Positions 33,454 to 41,654 of a DNA stretch of 64,000 nt are shown here, piece by piece. The position numbers and the translations under genes were made by a program. This DNA is from Streptomyces venezuelae ATCC 10712 (GTDB taxonomy: Bacteria > Actinomycetota > Actinomycetes > Streptomycetales > Streptomycetaceae): positions 62,001-126,000 of the forward strand of contig NZ_CP029197.1 in assembly GCF_008639165.1 (NCBI RefSeq), read 5' to 3'. Under the pieces are notes generated by a model. The model saw nothing but the letters and a program-made list of their open reading frames with translations, was not told the DNA's origin and searched no databases. How positions within the stretch are numbered: position 1 is the stretch's first letter; each line of letters begins with the position of its first letter.

Positions 33454-34284
33454 TCATGCCAGGCTCAGCGCGCCCGTCCGCCGGGCGCGGGCCTCCCCCA
33501 CCCGCAGGATCAGTGAGGCGGCGGCGAGGAGGAGGGCGCTCAGGGCTCCGAGGCCGAGCAGGGTGGGGGCCAGGTCGGACACGGTGCGGTGTTCGAGCAG
33601 TGCCCCGCGGACGGCGAGCAGGCTTCCGGTCAGCGGGAAGACCGCGCCGACGACCTGGACGGCGGCGGGGAGCGCGAAGTGCGGCAGCCGGACGCCCGAG
33701 ACGAACCACAGCGGCTCGTCGAGGATCGTGTACAGGAACGCCGAGTCCCTGGAGAACACCAGCAGGCTGTTGAGGAACGCGCCCCACGCCACCGCCGGGA
33801 CCAGCAGCGCCAGGAGGACGATGCCGTACATCCACCAGGCGGCCACCGACAGCGTGCCGAAGCCGGTCAGTGCGGCGACGGTGAAGCAGGTGAGCAGCCA
33901 GGCGTTCTGGAGGAGCGCGCCCGCGCCGTTGGCGATCATCAGGGTGAGTCGGCCGGCCGGCGAGAGGAAGAGCAGTTCCAGGGTGCCCGTGGCCCGCTCG
34001 AAGGAGAGGTGCCAGGCGCTCTGGACGAGGGAGAAGAAGAAGGCGTACGCGAGGGTGCCGGTGGCCAGGAAGGCGAGGAGGCGTTCGGGGTCGGCGGCGA
34101 GCGGCCAGTTCTCGGCCGCCCGGGAGGCCGTGGCGACGGGGCGCAGGGTGTAGTAGGTGGTGGCCAGTTGGAGCACCGGCCAGACGAGCATCGAGAAGAC
34201 GACGAGCGGCTGGCCGAAGAGCCGGCGGTGCTGCTTGAGCGTCTCCGCGGCGAAGACGCGCAGGGCGTGGCGGAGGTGGTTCAC
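33454..34284 (-). CDS. ABC-2 type transporter permease
   Basis: This 276-aa membrane protein has about six helices. An amphipathic start (LRHALRVFAAETLKQHRRLFG) precedes the first helix, and the family GTLELLFLSPAGRLTLMI segment follows the second. It overlaps the ATPase gene by 4 nt. With that ATPase and the second permease it forms an exporter of unknown substrate. Confidence 0.88.
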   Translation of the reverse strand: MNHLRHALRVFAAETLKQHRRLFGQPLVVFSMLVWPVLQLATTYYTLRPVATASRAAENWPLAADPERLLAFLATGTLAYAFFFSLVQSAWHLSFERATGTLELLFLSPAGRLTLMIANGAGALLQNAWLLTCFTVAALTGFGTLSVAAWWMYGIVLLALLVPAVAWGAFLNSLLVFSRDSAFLYTILDEPLWFVSGVRLPHFALPAAVQVVGAVFPLTGSLLAVRGALLEHRTVSDLAPTLLGLGALSALLLAAASLILRVGEARARRTGALSLA

Positions 34285-35441
34285 CGGCCGCCGCCGTGGG
34301 CTCCGGCGGTGTCGGCGGCGTCGACGACGGTCTGTACGGTCCCGGCGGTCCCCTCAGTCCCCGCAGTCCCGGCAGTCGTCCTGTCGGGACTGCGGGCCTC
34401 GGTGCGGGAGCCGGTCGTGGCAGAGGTCGTGTCGGCCGAGCCGCCGCGGGCTGGTCCGTGGGTCGTGAGGCCTGCCTCACCGCGCTCGGCCAGGGTCAGG
34501 ATGGCGTCCTCCAGGCTCGCCTCGGCGATCTCCAGTCCGCCGATGGAGCCGCCCGCCTCGACCACGGCCGCCGTCAGGGGGCCCGCCATGTCGTCGGGGT
34601 GCCGCAGTGTGATGAGTTCGCCGCCGTCGGGGAGGTTTTCGCGGGTGGCTCCGAAGGCGTCCGCGGCGGCCCGGGTGCGTTCGGTCGGGTCGGTGACGGT
34701 CAGCCGGACGGTGCGGTGGCTGCCGGTGGCCGCCTTCAGTGCGGCCGGGCTGCCCTGGGCGAGGTGCCGGCCTGCGGAGATCACGTACACGTGTCCGCAG
34801 AGTTCCTCGACCTCGGCGAGGTAGTGGGAGGTCAGCAGCACGCCGGTGCCGTCGTGGGCGGCGAGGTCGGCGACGACGCGGCGCAGGTCGCGGGCGATCG
34901 GCGCGTCGAGGCCGAGGGTCGGTTCGTCGAGCAGGAGGTAGTCGGGGCGGTTGATGAGGCCGCGGGCGATGGCGAGCCGCTGGGTCATGCCCCGCGAGTA
35001 CCGCTCGACCATGGTGTCGGCGGCGTCGGACAGTCCGACGAGGTCGAGGAGTTCGCCGGTCCTGCGGCGCAGTTCGGCCTTCGGGACGTCGTAGAGCTGG
35101 CCGAAGTACCAGAGGTTCTCGCGGCCGGTCATACGGGTGTAGACCATGCGCTCGCCGCCCGCGATGAGGTTGATGCGGCGGCGTACGGCGCGGGCGTCGC
35201 CGACGGCGTCGAGGCCGTCGACGCGGACGGTCCCGGCGCTGGGACGCAGGAGGGTGGCGAGGATCTTGATGGTGGTGGTCTTCCCGGCGCCGTTGAGGCC
35301 GAGGAGGCCGGTGACGCGGCCGCGCGGGATGTCGAGGTCGAGGCCGTCGACGGCGCGCTTGAGGGTGCGGGGCGCGAAGAGGCCCTTGTCGCGTACGGGG
35401 AAGTCCTTGCGCAGGCCGCGGACTTCGATCGCCGTGGTCAT
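34281..35441 (-). CDS. ABC transporter ATP-binding protein (drug-efflux type)
   Basis: This 386-aa protein has Walker A GLNGAGKTTT, signature YSRGMTQRLAIARGL, Walker B YLLLDEPT and the switch His in LLTSHYLAEVEEL. It resembles the NodI/DrrA-type ATPases of ABC-2 exporters. After residue 310 a Thr/Gly/Ala-rich tail follows (TTAGTAGTEGTAGT) that is not part of the domain. It is the middle gene: its ATG overlaps the upstream permease stop (35441) and its stop overlaps the downstream permease start (34284). Confidence 0.92.
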   Translation of the reverse strand: MTTAIEVRGLRKDFPVRDKGLFAPRTLKRAVDGLDLDIPRGRVTGLLGLNGAGKTTTIKILATLLRPSAGTVRVDGLDAVGDARAVRRRINLIAGGERMVYTRMTGRENLWYFGQLYDVPKAELRRRTGELLDLVGLSDAADTMVERYSRGMTQRLAIARGLINRPDYLLLDEPTLGLDAPIARDLRRVVADLAAHDGTGVLLTSHYLAEVEELCGHVYVISAGRHLAQGSPAALKAATGSHRTVRLTVTDPTERTRAAADAFGATRENLPDGGELITLRHPDDMAGPLTAAVVEAGGSIGGLEIAEASLEDAILTLAERGEAGLTTHGPARGGSADTTSATTGSRTEARSPDRTTAGTAGTEGTAGTVQTVVDAADTAGAHGGGR

Positions 35442-36244
35442 CAGTACGTCCTTTCGGCGGCGCGGGCCTCGGCCCGCGGGAGCCAGGTCAGCCCTATGAA
35501 GAGGTAGGCGCCGGTGAGGAGGGCGCAGACGGCCAGCCTCGGGAGGAGTTCGGGGAGGGACTGGCCGCCGGTGAAGCTGCCGTGCAGGACGTCCATCGCC
35601 GAGGTGGTGGGGAGCAGTTCGGCGAACCACCGCGCCGGCTCCGGGAGGTAGTCGCGCGGGAAGGTGAAGCCGCTGACGAGGCCGAGCACGATGAAGACGG
35701 TGTTCTGCGAGATGTGGGCCTCGCCCGCCGCGATCATGAGCCCGCCGAGGCCGACCGAGAGGGCGAAGACGGCCGCGATCAGCGCGAGTGCGCCGAGCAG
35801 GGCGCCCGGAACGGAGGAGACGGGCACGGTGATGCCGAGCGCGGCGACGACCAGGCCGAGGGTGAAGAACTCGACGATGCTGCTGAGCACGGCGAAGCCA
35901 GTGAAGCCGAGCAGGTACGGGAGCCGGGCGGCGGGTGCGATGAGGAGTGCGCCGAGCGTGCCCTGGCGCTGTTCGGTGATGAGGGCCTTGGCGGACCAGA
36001 GGATCAGCCGGACGGTGAACTGGAAGGCGGTCGCGCCGACGACGATGTAGGCGAGGTAGGCGGTGGTGCCGCTGTCGGCGGCGAAGTCGTCGCCCACTTC
36101 GCCGCCGCCGATGGCGTGGAAGCCGAGGTAGGCGAGCGCGATGGTGAGGGCGGCGGGCAGGACGGTGCCGACCGCGTACGTCCATGGGTAGGCGCGGCGG
36201 GTCATCTGCCAGGTGCGCCAGGCGGTGGCCCGGGCTGTGGGCAT
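35441..36244 (-). CDS. ABC-2 type transporter permease
   Basis: This 267-aa membrane protein has about six helices (AVGTVLPAALTIALAYLGF, VVGATAFQFTVRLILW, and later segments). It contains the family segment EQRQGTLGALLIAPAARLPYLLG after the second helix and FPRDYLPEPARWFAELLPTT before the last helices. It is the first gene of the exporter operon. The upstream region, shared with the divergent HxlR-redoxin gene, holds two tandem palindromes. Confidence 0.88.
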   Translation of the reverse strand: MPTARATAWRTWQMTRRAYPWTYAVGTVLPAALTIALAYLGFHAIGGGEVGDDFAADSGTTAYLAYIVVGATAFQFTVRLILWSAKALITEQRQGTLGALLIAPAARLPYLLGFTGFAVLSSIVEFFTLGLVVAALGITVPVSSVPGALLGALALIAAVFALSVGLGGLMIAAGEAHISQNTVFIVLGLVSGFTFPRDYLPEPARWFAELLPTTSAMDVLHGSFTGGQSLPELLPRLAVCALLTGAYLFIGLTWLPRAEARAAERTY

Positions 36245-36289
36245 GGAAAGAGTTCCTCCCCCGAGGTGTGTGAACCGTGGAAACGAGCG

Positions 36290-36330
36290 AGTTCCGATTG
36301 GGAACTTACAATGAGTTTCTATCGGGAACT
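36290..36330. promoter_or_regulatory. Tandem operator-like palindromes (AGTTCC-N5-GGAACT)
   Basis: AGTTCC-gattg-GGAACT (36290-36306) and AGTTTC-tatcg-GGAACT (36314-36330) are two 17-bp palindromes whose starts are 24 bp apart. They lie between the exporter operon (start 36244) and the HxlR-redoxin gene (start 36380). They are likely binding sites of that regulator for both promoters. Confidence 0.65.
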
Positions 36331-36379
36331 CACTCGATGGCGCAAGATGGATCCGAACAGGACCGGAGGAGGACACGTC

Positions 36380-37261
36380 ATGGCACGAGCCGTGCCCGAC
36401 CGCGACGCAGCCTGCGCCATCGCCCAGGCCGCAGCCGTCGTCGGCGACTGGTGGAGCCTGCTCCTCGTCCGAGAGACGGCGCGCGGGCAGCACCGCTTCG
36501 ACGAGCTCCAGCGCGAGCTCGAGATCTCCCGCAAGGTCCTCACCGAGCGGTTGAACCACCTCGTCGACAGCGGCGTCCTCGACAAGGTCCCGTACCAGGA
36601 GGGCCCGGTGCGCTTCGAGTACCGGCTCAGCGACGCGGGCCGCGCGCTGCTCCCCGTCCTGGTGTCGATGCAGGACTGGGCCGACCGCTGGCTGCTCGGC
36701 GACGGCTCCCTCACCGCCTCCGCCGACGAGCGCAGCGCCGAGGCGCACCGGGTGCACGACCTGCCCGGCGCCCGCCTGCCCCGCCTCACGCTCCCCGCGC
36801 ACACGGGGACCGGGCTCGACCCGGTCGACGCCGACGCCGGGGCCACCGTCCTGTTCTGCTATCCGGCGACCGGCCGCCCGGGCCCCCTGCCGGACGACTG
36901 GCTCGACATCCCCGGCACGGCGGGCTGCACCCTGGAGAACCGGCTGTTCCGCGAGGCGTACGAGCGGTTCACGGCGGCGGGCGTCGCGGTGCGCGGTGTC
37001 AGCACCCAACGCCCGGACGAGCAGCGGGCGTTCGCGGCGGCGGAGGAGATCCCCTTCCCGCTGCTCTCCGACATGGACAACGCGCTCTCGGCGGCCCTCC
37101 GGCTGCCCACCTTCCGCGCGGGCCAGGCCCTCCGGCTGAAGCGGGCGGTGCTCGTGGTCGACCGCGAACGGACCGTGCGGCACGTCCAGTTCCCCGTCAC
37201 GGACATCCCGGCCGCCGTGGAGACGGCGTGGCGGGAGGGATCGGCCGTCGCCTCGGAGTGA
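36380..37261 (+). CDS. HxlR-family regulator fused to a peroxiredoxin-like domain
   Basis: This is a 293-aa fusion. Residues 5-105 form an HxlR winged helix (CAIAQAAAVVGDWWSLLLVR, LEISRKVLTERLNHLVDSGVL, YRLSDAGRALLPVL). Residues 140-290 form a thioredoxin-fold AhpC/TSA-like domain (GATVLFCYPATG, GTAGCTLENRLFREAYERF, RAFAAAEEIPFPLLSDMD) with a Cys in the peroxidatic position (AGCT). ATG 36380 follows GGAGGAGG. It probably senses peroxide or thiol state through the attached domain and controls the divergent ABC exporter. The resolving Cys is not obvious. Confidence 0.87.
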   Translation: MARAVPDRDAACAIAQAAAVVGDWWSLLLVRETARGQHRFDELQRELEISRKVLTERLNHLVDSGVLDKVPYQEGPVRFEYRLSDAGRALLPVLVSMQDWADRWLLGDGSLTASADERSAEAHRVHDLPGARLPRLTLPAHTGTGLDPVDADAGATVLFCYPATGRPGPLPDDWLDIPGTAGCTLENRLFREAYERFTAAGVAVRGVSTQRPDEQRAFAAAEEIPFPLLSDMDNALSAALRLPTFRAGQALRLKRAVLVVDRERTVRHVQFPVTDIPAAVETAWREGSAVASE

Positions 37262-37608: not shown

Positions 37609-38931
37609 ATGACCAGAGGCATGGACCGCAGATCCGTCATCCGCGGCATGGCGACGGCCGGGGCCGGCGCCGCCGCCGGCGCGCTGGCGATGGGGAGCGG
37701 CCCGGCCTACGCGGCGGGTTCGGGGGACGACCCGTACAGCGTGGACGTCATCGCCAAGGGGGCCGACCCGACCGGTGCGACCCCCAGCGACGCCGCCTTC
37801 CGCGCCGCCGCCGCCGAGGTACTCGCCTCGTTCCAGCCCGACCCGATCTCGGGGGCCGTCCCGAAGAAGGTCCTGGTGATCCCGCCGGGCACGTACCTCC
37901 TGACGCAGCCGGACTCGCTGCTGCCGAACGTCAACGGCGAGGGCGGCGGCGGCATCGTCGACGGCCTGTCGATCACGGGTTACGGCAAGCGGCTCTCCCG
38001 CATCGTGTACTCGCCGGCGGCGAACGACACCACCCTGTGGACGAACTACCAGCGCTACAAGAACATCCGGATCTCCGGGCTCACGTTCACCAGCACCAAC
38101 GCCACGTCGAGCTTCAACTACGCCTACTCGTCGGCGACCTACGGCGTCCAGGACACCTGGTACACCGACGTCGAGTGGCGCGGCAGCTGGAAGCGCGGCA
38201 TCGGCCTGGACGGCCCGGCCACCACCTCGAACCTGAACAGCGAGATGGGCTGGGACCACTGCCAGGTCGGCGGCTCGTACTCCGACGCGTTCCTCGTCAT
38301 GGGGATGACGCCGGCCGCGACGCAGCAGGACCAGTTCCTCAACTACTGGTTCCGCGACTGCAAGGTGGAGTACCAGTCCGGGGTGTTCGTGAAGAACAAC
38401 CGGGGCGGTTCGATGAACTTCATCGGCGGCTCCTACATCCTCACGGACGCGGCGTCGACCGGCACGTTCTTCCAGCTCACGGCCGACGCCACCACGCGGG
38501 CCGACTCCGTCAACCGGCTGTACGCGCAGGGCATCCGCTTCGAGCTGCGCGGTGTCGGCCACAAGGTGATCGACTCCCGGTGGTACAAGGGCAACATCAC
38601 CTTCGAGTCGTGCGACGACACCGCGCTGAGCTTCAAGTCCTGGGCTCCGGACGCGGTGACGCACGTGTACGACTTCAACGCCAACGGCTCCCGCGGCCCG
38701 ATGGTGCGGTACGTGGACTGCGGGCTCATGGGCTCGCACCAGGTGACGACCGGGGCGACGCCGACCACCAACGGCAAGGTGCTGTACGACGGTTGCCGGT
38801 TCATCGACATGTCGACCGCGACCGGGACGACCGGGTTCCTCCGCTGGACCGGATCCGCCGCGCCCCGCCACGAGATGCGTGACTGCCTCATCGGCGCGAA
38901 CTACCTGGCGGACGTGAAGTACCCCGCCTGA
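37609..38931 (+). CDS. Secreted pectate-lyase-superfamily beta-helix protein
   Basis: This 440-aa protein has a Tat signal (DRRSVIRGMATAGAGAAAG to GPAYAA). A Pectate_lyase_3-type start follows (VDVIAKGADPTGATPSDAAF), a PPGTYLLT segment and many beta-helix rungs (IRISGLTFT, HCQVGGSYSDAF, FRDCKVEYQSG, FIGGSYIL, VDCGLMG). It probably degrades or binds an extracellular polysaccharide. ATG 37609 has a GGGGG sequence 6-7 nt upstream; ATG 37621 is possible. No catalytic residues can be named with confidence. A strong hairpin terminator follows. Confidence 0.82.
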   Translation: MTRGMDRRSVIRGMATAGAGAAAGALAMGSGPAYAAGSGDDPYSVDVIAKGADPTGATPSDAAFRAAAAEVLASFQPDPISGAVPKKVLVIPPGTYLLTQPDSLLPNVNGEGGGGIVDGLSITGYGKRLSRIVYSPAANDTTLWTNYQRYKNIRISGLTFTSTNATSSFNYAYSSATYGVQDTWYTDVEWRGSWKRGIGLDGPATTSNLNSEMGWDHCQVGGSYSDAFLVMGMTPAATQQDQFLNYWFRDCKVEYQSGVFVKNNRGGSMNFIGGSYILTDAASTGTFFQLTADATTRADSVNRLYAQGIRFELRGVGHKVIDSRWYKGNITFESCDDTALSFKSWAPDAVTHVYDFNANGSRGPMVRYVDCGLMGSHQVTTGATPTTNGKVLYDGCRFIDMSTATGTTGFLRWTGSAAPRHEMRDCLIGANYLADVKYPA

Positions 38932-39118: not shown

Positions 39119-40429
39119 GTGACTCGCCCCACCACCGCCCGGTCGCTCGTGCTGGTCGTGACCACCGCGCTCGCGGCCGCGGCCCTGGCCGTACCGGCCC
39201 AGGCCCACCACCGTGGTTCCGCCGGTTCGCCGCCGGTCGTCACCCCCCGCGCGGAGACGCCGGTCCTGCACGACGACGACGCGGGCGGCAACGCCGACGC
39301 GGACGACCCCGCGATCTGGCGCAACGCCGCGGCCCCCGGCCGCAGCCTCGTCATCGCGACCGCCAAGGAGGGCGGCCTGCGCGTCTACGACCTGGACGCG
39401 CGACCGGTGCAGTCGATAGCCGCGCCGCCGGCCGCCGGGCCGGACGACGCCCCCGGCCGGTTCAACAACGTCGACCTCGTGCAGGGCCTGCGCCTCTCCA
39501 CCGGGCGCGCCGACCTGGCCGTGACCAGCGACCGCGGCCACGACCGGCTGCGGTTCTACCGCATCGACCGCGACCGTCCGGGCGGCCCGCTCACCGACGT
39601 CACCGACCCCGCCGCACCGGCCGTCTTCTCGCGGGACCAGGCCGAGGTCAACGACCAGCGGACCGCGTACGGCCTGGCCACCTGGACCGACCCTGCGTCC
39701 GGCACATCCTTCGCCCTGGTCAGCCGGCGCGAGCGGACCAGCATCACCCTGCTCGAACTGCTTCCGGCGGCGGGCGGCAAGGTCACGTACCGCACGGTCC
39801 GCACCCTGGACCTGCCCGCCACCTTCCGGCTCCCCGACGGCACCTCGTGGGCCCCGTGCGGCGAGCCCGGCGAACTGCCGCAGGTCGAGGGCATGGTCGT
39901 CGACCCGGCCAACGGCACGCTGTACGCCGGGCAGGAGGACATCGGCATCTGGCGGCTGCGCGCCGACCTCACCGGCACGCCGCGGCTGGTCGACAAGGTC
40001 CGCGAGTACGGCGTCCCCGGCGTCTACGACGAGGAGACGGAGGAGTGCACGCCGGGCGCCGACCCCGGCTTCGGCGGGACGCGGATCTCCTCGGACGTCG
40101 AAGGCCTGACGCTGCTCACCGAGTCCGACGGTGACGGCTACCTCCTCGCCTCCAGCCAGGGCGACAACACCTTCGCCGCCTACGACCGCGAGCTCGCCGA
40201 CCACAACGAGTACGAGGGCGGCTTCCGGGTCGCTCCCGCGAGCGCCGCGCTGGACGGCTCCGAGGAGTGCGACGGCGCCGCCGCCCTGAACGCTCCCCTC
40301 GGCGCGAAGTACCCTCACGGACTGCTCGTCGTGCAGGACGGTCACGACGCCCCCGGCGACGGCGACCGGCCGGCGACGAACTTCAAGTTCGTCGACCTGG
40401 GCCTCGTCCTGACCGCCCTCGACGACTGA
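39119..40429 (+). CDS. Secreted beta-propeller phytase
   Basis: This 436-aa protein has a signal peptide (LVLVVTTALAAAALAVPAQAHH). It follows the beta-propeller phytase family: DADDPAIWRNAAAPGRSLVI, VIATAKEGGLRVYDLD, FNNVDLV, TSDRGHDRLRFYRID, VEGMVVDP, LYAGQEDIGIW, SSDVEGLTLL and a C-terminal TNFKFVDLG. Asp/Glu residues around the channel bind Ca2+. It releases phosphate from phytate outside the cell. GTG 39119 follows GAGGAGA. The PHO box upstream fits phosphate-limited expression. Confidence 0.92.
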   Translation: MTRPTTARSLVLVVTTALAAAALAVPAQAHHRGSAGSPPVVTPRAETPVLHDDDAGGNADADDPAIWRNAAAPGRSLVIATAKEGGLRVYDLDARPVQSIAAPPAAGPDDAPGRFNNVDLVQGLRLSTGRADLAVTSDRGHDRLRFYRIDRDRPGGPLTDVTDPAAPAVFSRDQAEVNDQRTAYGLATWTDPASGTSFALVSRRERTSITLLELLPAAGGKVTYRTVRTLDLPATFRLPDGTSWAPCGEPGELPQVEGMVVDPANGTLYAGQEDIGIWRLRADLTGTPRLVDKVREYGVPGVYDEETEECTPGADPGFGGTRISSDVEGLTLLTESDGDGYLLASSQGDNTFAAYDRELADHNEYEGGFRVAPASAALDGSEECDGAAALNAPLGAKYPHGLLVVQDGHDAPGDGDRPATNFKFVDLGLVLTALDD

Positions 40430-40520: not shown

Positions 40521-41654
40521 CTAGTACGGCTTGGCCAGGGCGTGGGCGGCGCCGGGGATGCCGACCTTCAGGAGGGCGTCCTCGTCGGGGGTCGTCGGCG
40601 CGCCCATCTCCTGCTTCAGGACGGCTCGCGACAGGGCCTGGACCCACATCGCGCGGGGCCTGCGGCGGAGTTCCCAGGCTTCGAGGGCCGCGGGCACCGT
40701 CGGGGCGGAGTCCAGGGACTCGGCGAGGACCAGGGCGTCCTCGACGGCCATCGCCGCGCCCTGGGCGAGGTGCGGGGTGGAGGCGTGGGCCGCGTCGCCG
40801 GCCAGGGCCACCCGGCCGACGTGCCAGGGCTCTTCGACGGTCACCTGCGAGATGCGGGAGTAGACCACGGCGGTGGGGTCGGTGACGGCGGAGAGCGCTT
40901 CGGCGACCGGGCCGGAGAACGCCGCGAGGCGCTGCGCGAGCTGCTCGTGCGCCTGCTCCGGGTCGGGGCGGAAGTCCTCGGCCTCGGCGAACACGGAGCC
41001 CAGGTACATGAGTTCGTCCGTGATCGGGGTGAGGAGGGCCTTCGCCTCCTTGCCCGCCGTGGCCATGACGACGCCCTGCACGTAGGGGTGCCGGGGCAGG
41101 GTGACCCGCCAGTTCGCGAAGCCGGTGTACTCGGGGACGTACCGGTCGCCGTAGAGGCGGGTGCGCAGCGGGGAACCGATGCCGTCGAAGCCGACGACCA
41201 GGTCCCAGCGGTCCGTGGCGCCGTCGGAGAGCGTCACGGTGACGCCCGTACCGTCGTCGTCGAGTTCGGTCACGGTGACGCCGAAGCGGACCTTCGCGCC
41301 GGCGGCGACGGCGGCGTCGCCGAGCACCTTGGCGAGCGCGGGCCGCGGTATGCCGTTTGCCGCCGGGACGTCGCCCATGCGCGGCTGCGGGATGCGGGCG
41401 AGCGTGTTCCCCGCGGGGTCGGCGATCGTCAGGATCTCCCACTCGAACCCGGCGTCGAGGCAGGCGTCGAGCACGCCGAGCTCCCGCATGACGTGCAGGG
41501 CGTTCGTCGGCTGGATGATGCCGACGCCGAGCGCGTCGAGCTCGTCGCGGATCTCCGCGATCTCCACGGTGTGGCCGCGCCGGGCGAGGGCGGTGGCGAG
41601 CGCGAGGCCGCCGATGCCTCCGCCGTGGATGAGGACGCGCAGGGATGCTGCCAT
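40521..41654 (-). CDS. FAD-dependent aromatic monooxygenase (PHBH/UbiH type)
   Basis: This 377-aa flavoprotein has the ADP-binding GGGIGGLALA near the start, the DG motif region in VVGFDGIGSPLR and the GD motif VALAGDAAHASTPHLAQGAA. Together these mark class A hydroxylases using FAD and NAD(P)H. Substrate unknown; salicylate- or kynurenine-like aromatics are the family norm. It lies 66 nt after the conservon GTPase on the same strand, so it may be cotranscribed as an accessory enzyme. Confidence 0.9.
   Translation of the reverse strand: MAASLRVLIHGGGIGGLALATALARRGHTVEIAEIRDELDALGVGIIQPTNALHVMRELGVLDACLDAGFEWEILTIADPAGNTLARIPQPRMGDVPAANGIPRPALAKVLGDAAVAAGAKVRFGVTVTELDDDGTGVTVTLSDGATDRWDLVVGFDGIGSPLRTRLYGDRYVPEYTGFANWRVTLPRHPYVQGVVMATAGKEAKALLTPITDELMYLGSVFAEAEDFRPDPEQAHEQLAQRLAAFSGPVAEALSAVTDPTAVVYSRISQVTVEEPWHVGRVALAGDAAHASTPHLAQGAAMAVEDALVLAESLDSAPTVPAALEAWELRRRPRAMWVQALSRAVLKQEMGAPTTPDEDALLKVGIPGAAHALAKPY

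Follow-up and report, generated by a model that had tools for sequence, protein, structure and literature searches.

An HxlR-peroxiredoxin fusion regulator with two candidate operators facing a divergent ABC-2 exporter operon in Streptomyces venezuelae

The window considered here, the whole stretch of 64,000 nucleotides analyzed from Streptomyces venezuelae ATCC 10712, contains a gene whose product is a single protein with an HxlR winged helix followed by a complete PrxQ/BCP-type peroxiredoxin domain. Across two candidate operators this gene faces a divergent operon for an ABC-2 exporter (Table 1). The existing public record that was checked for the protein names it merely a winged helix-turn-helix regulator. 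The fusion had been proposed in an earlier reading of the letters alone (the original prediction) and is borne out by Pfam for both domains, by an AlphaFold2 model and by a structural match to a solved peroxiredoxin. The N-terminal half belongs to the HxlR family (PF01638; 86.2 bits, cut-off 20.8), and the C-terminal half matches AhpC-TSA (PF00578) at residues 180-268 (E 1.3e-16; 61.1 bits, cut-off 26) and, above the gathering score, Redoxin (PF08534) over residues 130-273. The model (pLDDT 84.9, pTM 0.85; input alignment of 45 homologues) falls below pLDDT 50 at residues 1-8 and at residues 165-181, the loop before Cys183. Its residues 124-293 align with BcpB of M. tuberculosis (5epf) with Z 19.0 and an rmsd of 2.3 A over 153 residues, and PrxQ of X. 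campestris reaches Z 17.7; PrxQ, AhpE and AhpC structures score slightly below 5epf against this half. The HxlR half was assigned from sequence and not from fold, the Foldseek and VIA-align lists being filled by the peroxiredoxin half, and its solved relatives by sequence are 2f2e, 4gcv, YodB (5hs7) and HxlR (7bze). Each half lies in a known family by domain score, the second also by fold, and two features of PrxQ proteins, the resolving cysteine and the Pro/Thr motif, are absent from the second half.

Table 1. Features of the fusion-regulator locus, in window positions.
Feature	Position	Strand	Basis or conservation
Second ABC-2 permease	33454..34284	-	PF12698 E 2.3e-4, below Pfam cut-off
DrrA-like ABC ATPase	34281..35441	-	PF00005 E 7.3e-28; TIGR01188 below cut-off
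ABC-2 permease, first gene of divergent operon	35441..36244	-	PF01061 E 7.4e-12
Operator 1 (candidate), AGTTCC-GATTG-GGAACT, exact palindrome	36290..36306		Conserved upstream of homologues
Operator 2 (candidate), AGTTTC-TATCG-GGAACT, one mismatch	36314..36330		Conserved upstream of homologues
HxlR-peroxiredoxin fusion regulator, 293 aa	36380..37261	+	ORF list, translation, Pfam
Codon of Cys12, conserved helix-1 Cys of HxlR/DUF24 regulators	36413..36415	+	118/118 complete homologues
HxlR winged helix-turn-helix domain (residues 20-105)	36437..36694	+	PF01638 E 1.4e-24; solved relatives
PrxQ/BCP-like peroxiredoxin domain (about residues 124-287)	36749..37240	+	PF00578, PF08534, 5epf match
Codon of Cys160, variable	36857..36859	+	Cys in 80/119 homologues
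Codon of Cys183, peroxidatic position (A-G-C-T-L-E)	36926..36928	+	Cys in 119/119 homologues
Codon of Arg188, at PrxQ resolving Cys place (Cp+5)	36941..36943	+	Cys in 39/119 fusions

The anticipated divergent ABC-2 exporter is likewise present, as a minus-strand operon that comprises a permease, an ATPase and a second permease, three genes with overlapping ends. The operon is of ABC-2 type by Pfam; scores for the DrrAB-type NCBIfam models stay below their cut-offs (245 bits against 312 for TIGR01188, 30 bits against 223 for TIGR01247). A scan of positions 36200-36420 for sigma-70 promoters and terminators, which says little for Streptomyces, found none. On the other side of the fusion gene, positions 37609-38931 encode a protein of 440 residues whose N-terminus resembles a leader and for which Pfam gives no match at 1e-5, and neighbouring genes encode a phytase (39119-40429; PF02333) and an FAD-binding monooxygenase-like protein (40521-41654; PF01494).

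Intact full-length homologues of the fusion occur in 44 of 150 Streptomyces genomes, the window's own included, one of which (G073) has two; the homologues from the other Streptomyces are 55-96% identical to the window protein. In one further genome a match that covers the latter half of the fusion (L085, G029:C54:53027-53560) contains two in-frame TGA codons; it is probably a decaying fusion copy and was removed before the counts. A scan of bacteria and archaea with one genome per species gave 429 relatives, and the best 80 of these include members of Streptomyces, Kitasatospora, Kribbella, Micromonospora, Phytohabitans, Hamadaea, Nonomuraea, Sphaerisporangium and Microtetraspora, and two labelled just Actinobacteria. 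In a phylum sample of 396 genomes, full-length matches were found, among the matches listed, in three, all Streptomyces, so that within those listed matches the family appears rare outside its home lineages. No fusion was found in 11 genomes of another family by a search run without a positive control. Matches on Agrobacterium plasmids that seemingly extended across both domains were discarded, the one record opened being a solo peroxiredoxin of 184 aa. Judged from these sequences, the HxlR-peroxiredoxin architecture is an established actinomycete family, present in at least four actinomycete families.

For comparison between loci, two overlapping sets of 45 and 80 loci were pooled and identical proteins merged, leaving 119 distinct loci. 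In 95 of them the gene that diverges from the fusion encodes an exporter (MFS_1 in 43, MFS_3 in 28 and ABC in 24, by Pfam naming), and other divergent partners are enolase (8), O-methyltransferase (5) and DapD (5), with none found in 6. ABC-type partners occur in Streptomyces, Kitasatospora, Micromonospora, Phytohabitans and Sphaerisporangium, and 23 of the 24 ABC-type loci include the second permease, the contig of the remaining one being too short. In one clade (L071, L073-L076, L078-L080) a full enolase gene diverges from the fusion (TIGR01060, 649 bits for L079), which is unexpected beside a regulator of the exporter type.

The operators show a comparable degree of conservation. Two 17-bp AGTTCC-N5-GGAACT palindromes 24 bp apart had been proposed; both sites lie where expected, at 24 bp from start to start, the second, however, being imperfect by one mismatch. 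The exact palindrome occurs once in the whole 8.22-Mb genome, and the broader pattern AGTTYC-N5-GRAACT matches solely operators 1 and 2, the reversed-pattern control giving 1 match; a search that allowed one mismatch in an extended form of the pattern revealed no further site in this genome beyond the fusion locus. Across the family, NGTTYC-N5-GRAACN is found within 220 bp upstream of the gene in 106 of the 119 loci (125 sites). Three control stretches of the 119 loci (the gene's initial 220 bp, mid-gene, and -620 to -400) have none, nor do 116 downstream regions; the rest of the flanking DNA has 3 sites in 908 kb, and shuffled upstream regions of the fusion loci yield a mean of 0.065 loci with an operator. 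Base counts extend the family operator to a longer palindrome, AGTGAGTTCC-N5-GGAACTGACT. Most of the 13 loci that lack the strict operator hold, by eye, a degenerate copy, such as AGTCTCCATTGGAGACT at the Nonomuraea dietziae locus. Tandem operators are present in 19 loci at a spacing of 21-33 bp, which is 24 bp in most close relatives of the window locus, and they occur in 12 of 24 ABC-type loci compared with none of 43 MFS_1-type loci. Among solo HxlR genes, most of the 16 upstream regions examined are without an AGTTYC-type palindrome, and one fetched later (L216) has AGTTCC-CTCGG-GGAACT, which shows that fusions are not alone in having this class of operator. The comparison of operators and partners across loci makes it very likely that regulator, operator and exporter form a unit, and the anatomy supports the one-component regulator of the original prediction, its tandem operators lying between its own gene and an exporter operon.

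An additional target is suggested by operator sites elsewhere in the genomes of relatives. A pattern search found AGTTYC-N5-GGAACT in 55 of the 150 Streptomyces genomes, and seven sites unlinked to the fusion, picked by eye from fusion-bearing genomes, all lie just upstream of one class I O-methyltransferase gene. Its product matches PF01596 (E 7.7e-37), and the nearest solved structure is 8c9s, with catechol O-methyltransferases (COMT) lower in the list. A less biased protein search returned matches at E 1e-40 or better in 91 of the 150 genomes. The 12 closest (at least 73% identity, a cut chosen once the gap from 73% to 68% was apparent) all come from fusion-bearing genomes, for which the hypergeometric probability, ignoring kinship and with 44 of 150 genomes bearing the fusion, is 1.2e-7. 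The upstream regions examined belong to 51 (31 + 20) of the 96 methyltransferase matches. The strict operator stands 40-58 bp upstream in 11 of the 12 close homologues, the twelfth adjoining its fusion with a degenerate operator, and it is present in 2 of the 39 more distant homologues examined, one of the two in a fusion-bearing genome. The COMT-like loci with a fusion-type operator are L209-L215 and L217-L228. This O-methyltransferase is thus a probable second target in relatives and a clue to the substrate: because it shares the operator, the compound defended against may be of catechol or hydroquinone type, and an inducer of that type is a guess drawn from the same gene. The window genome has more distant homologues only, the best at 63% identity and without a site, so that in this strain the action of the fusion regulator seems confined to its own locus.

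An important aspect of the family is its cysteine pattern. The cysteine of the AGCT motif to which the original prediction had pointed is Cys183, and it shares with Cys12 the distinction of being the only invariant cysteines among the 119 fusions (Cys12 in the 118 complete ones). The resolving cysteine at Cp+5 is lost in 80 of the 119, the window protein included, whereas all 18 solo domain records and all 12 MerR-fused ones, some of them duplicates, retain it. Neither this cysteine nor Cys160 is present in 34 fusions, and 26 contain no cysteines except Cys12 and Cys183. Homologues with just two cysteines include those of Micromonospora phaseoli (L139) and Kribbella steppae (L144). In 117 of the 119 the HTH half is without a second cysteine, which makes a two-cysteine switch inside that half impossible in those proteins. 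Because of this pattern, a disulfide that links two different positions can only be Cys12-Cys183 in the 26 homologues; disulfides that join the same position in both subunits, and mixed ones formed with small thiols, are possible there. Lys254, Arg255 and Glu186 are invariant as well (119/119). PrxQ/BCP proteins carry the motif Pro-x3-Thr/Ser-x2-Cys, with Thr or Ser canonical at Cp-3. At this position, three residues ahead of Cys183, 75 fusions have Ala, 42 have Thr and 2 have Ser, and the window protein has Thr180 there and no Pro at Cp-7, departing from the motif. Peroxidase activity is uncertain because of the frequent Ala at Cp-3 and the lack of this Pro in the window protein. Taken together, the cysteines suggest a switch in which the peroxiredoxin acts on the regulator in cis.

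We infer DNA binding, repression, oxidant sensing and the nature of the substrate as follows. On balance, the window protein is probably a local, dedicated redox-responsive repressor of the divergent ABC exporter and of its own gene, with Cys183 as the sensor. A dimer formed through the HxlR halves would bind the two operators between its own start and the ABC operon and, judging from their conservation and position, would repress both promoters, the direction of control being assumed. The peroxiredoxin half would supply a fast-reacting thiol, Cys183, that may be oxidized by peroxide or by oxidants arising from redox-cycling phenolics. This oxidation would alter the winged-helix half, most simply through a disulfide with or near Cys12, leading to release of the DNA and switching export on. 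A more specific form of this mechanism, possible and on the whole doubtful, is that Cys183 reacts with peroxide and then forms a disulfide with Cys12 in the DNA-binding half of the same dimer, Cys12 taking the place of the lost resolving cysteine. The protein would then be a true sensor enzyme with a regulator joined to it, and the family would serve in defence against phenolics of catechol or hydroquinone type by export and O-methylation.

The same features can be read without a sensing role for Cys183. The winged helix alone might sense through Cys12, by thiolation or by alkylation with electrophiles or quinones, with the role of the peroxiredoxin half, a mere peroxidase or dimer-stabilizing extension, limited to resetting or buffering the switch. 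Cys12 is indeed the counterpart of the sensing cysteine described for HypR and CatR (PMC6943732), its equivalent is kept in 17 of 17 solo HxlR proteins compared by eye, and the absence of a second cysteine from nearly all HTH halves fits one-cysteine thiolation. As the helix-1 cysteine is a general trait of the HxlR family, the invariance of Cys12 alone is no proof of a relay. However, a passive extension has no need of Cys183 and several other peroxiredoxin residues that are strict in 119 proteins, and it is the fusions that preferentially lose the resolving cysteine, so that we regard sensing by Cys12 alone as unlikely. It is also conceivable, and in our view quite improbable, that the peroxiredoxin fold has been repurposed to bind the aromatic substrate of the exporter, giving a non-covalent switch independent of redox state. 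Drug-type exporters and a COMT-like methyltransferase as partners, the deviating active-site residues, chiefly Ala at Cp-3, and the low-confidence loop before Cys183 in the model would suit such a role, whereas the invariance of Cys183, Arg255, Lys254 and Glu186 speaks against it, as do solo peroxiredoxin relatives, which share a similar loop and yet keep both peroxiredoxin cysteines. Formaldehyde sensing of the kind seen in HxlR of B. subtilis, where a methylene bridge links Cys11 and Lys13, has in its favour the same fold family and the match of Cys12 to the helix-1 cysteine (PMC7835342). According to the same source Lys13 is essential, however, and the residue two after Cys12 is Ile in 115 of the 118 complete fusions (Ile14 in the window protein), Val in 3 and never Lys. 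With no Cys-x-Lys on helix 1 in any of the 118, this switch was rejected as scarcely credible.

Known thiol-based bacterial regulators usually sense through a cysteine in the DNA-binding fold or use a separate peroxidase. With a whole peroxiredoxin built into the regulator, the transfer of oxidation from a peroxidase to a transcription factor becomes testable in one purified protein. The family moreover offers a clear operator, adjoining exporters and natural cysteine variants, and the operator shared with the O-methyltransferase of relatives provides a handle on what these uncharacterized exporters export. Overall, the adjoining transporter genes and the shared operators suggest that these regulators may sense oxidation and control export.

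A search of the open-access literature, with most subscription journals outside its scope, found no description of an HxlR-peroxiredoxin fusion, and in the main text of a peroxiredoxin atlas the words fusion, DNA-binding, transcription and HTH are absent (PMC5302317). The HxlR regulators named in Streptomyces gene clusters in two reports are solo proteins of 118 and 128 aa (PMC4943663, PMC4763440). The DNA-binding half has the same winged helix and helix-1 cysteine as the HxlR/DUF24 regulators of the MarR superfamily HypR, YodB, CatR and QsrR, of which the first three are described as sensing oxidants or quinones through their N-terminal cysteine (PMC6943732); this cysteine is reported to be conserved and reactive across the family (PMC7835342). 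In contrast to those four regulators, the HTH half of nearly all fusions is without a second cysteine, and a peroxiredoxin stands behind it, whereas solved HxlR relatives, at 107-168 aa, are too short for such a second domain. With PrxQ/BCP proteins such as BcpB (5epf) and PrxQ of X. campestris, the other half shares the fold and the cysteine at the peroxidatic position, followed by Thr and Glu. It differs from them in being joined to a DNA-binding domain, in the missing resolving cysteine of the window protein, in a longer loop before Cys183 and in the residue at Cp-3, often Ala in fusions.

The window genome also encodes a MerR-peroxiredoxin fusion (G000:C1:7159870-7160316; L033, L095) that combines PF13411 with PF00578 and has relatives in L086-L094. 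Like the HxlR fusion, these Streptomyces proteins carry a related peroxiredoxin domain behind a DNA-binding domain, but the latter is of another family, the resolving cysteine is kept, and the peroxiredoxin domains form a separate clade among solo ones. In a tree of 63 peroxiredoxin domains, one branch (100/95) sets apart all 36 HxlR-fused domains and another (100/99) all 10 of the MerR-fused kind, the latter lying among solo domains, so that the two kinds of fusion look separate. A functional parallel is found in yeasts, where the thiol peroxidases of the Gpx3/Orp1-Yap1 and Tpx1-Pap1 relays detect peroxide on behalf of a transcription factor. Those relays work in trans between two proteins, whereas the HxlR-peroxiredoxin fusion has both halves in one chain.
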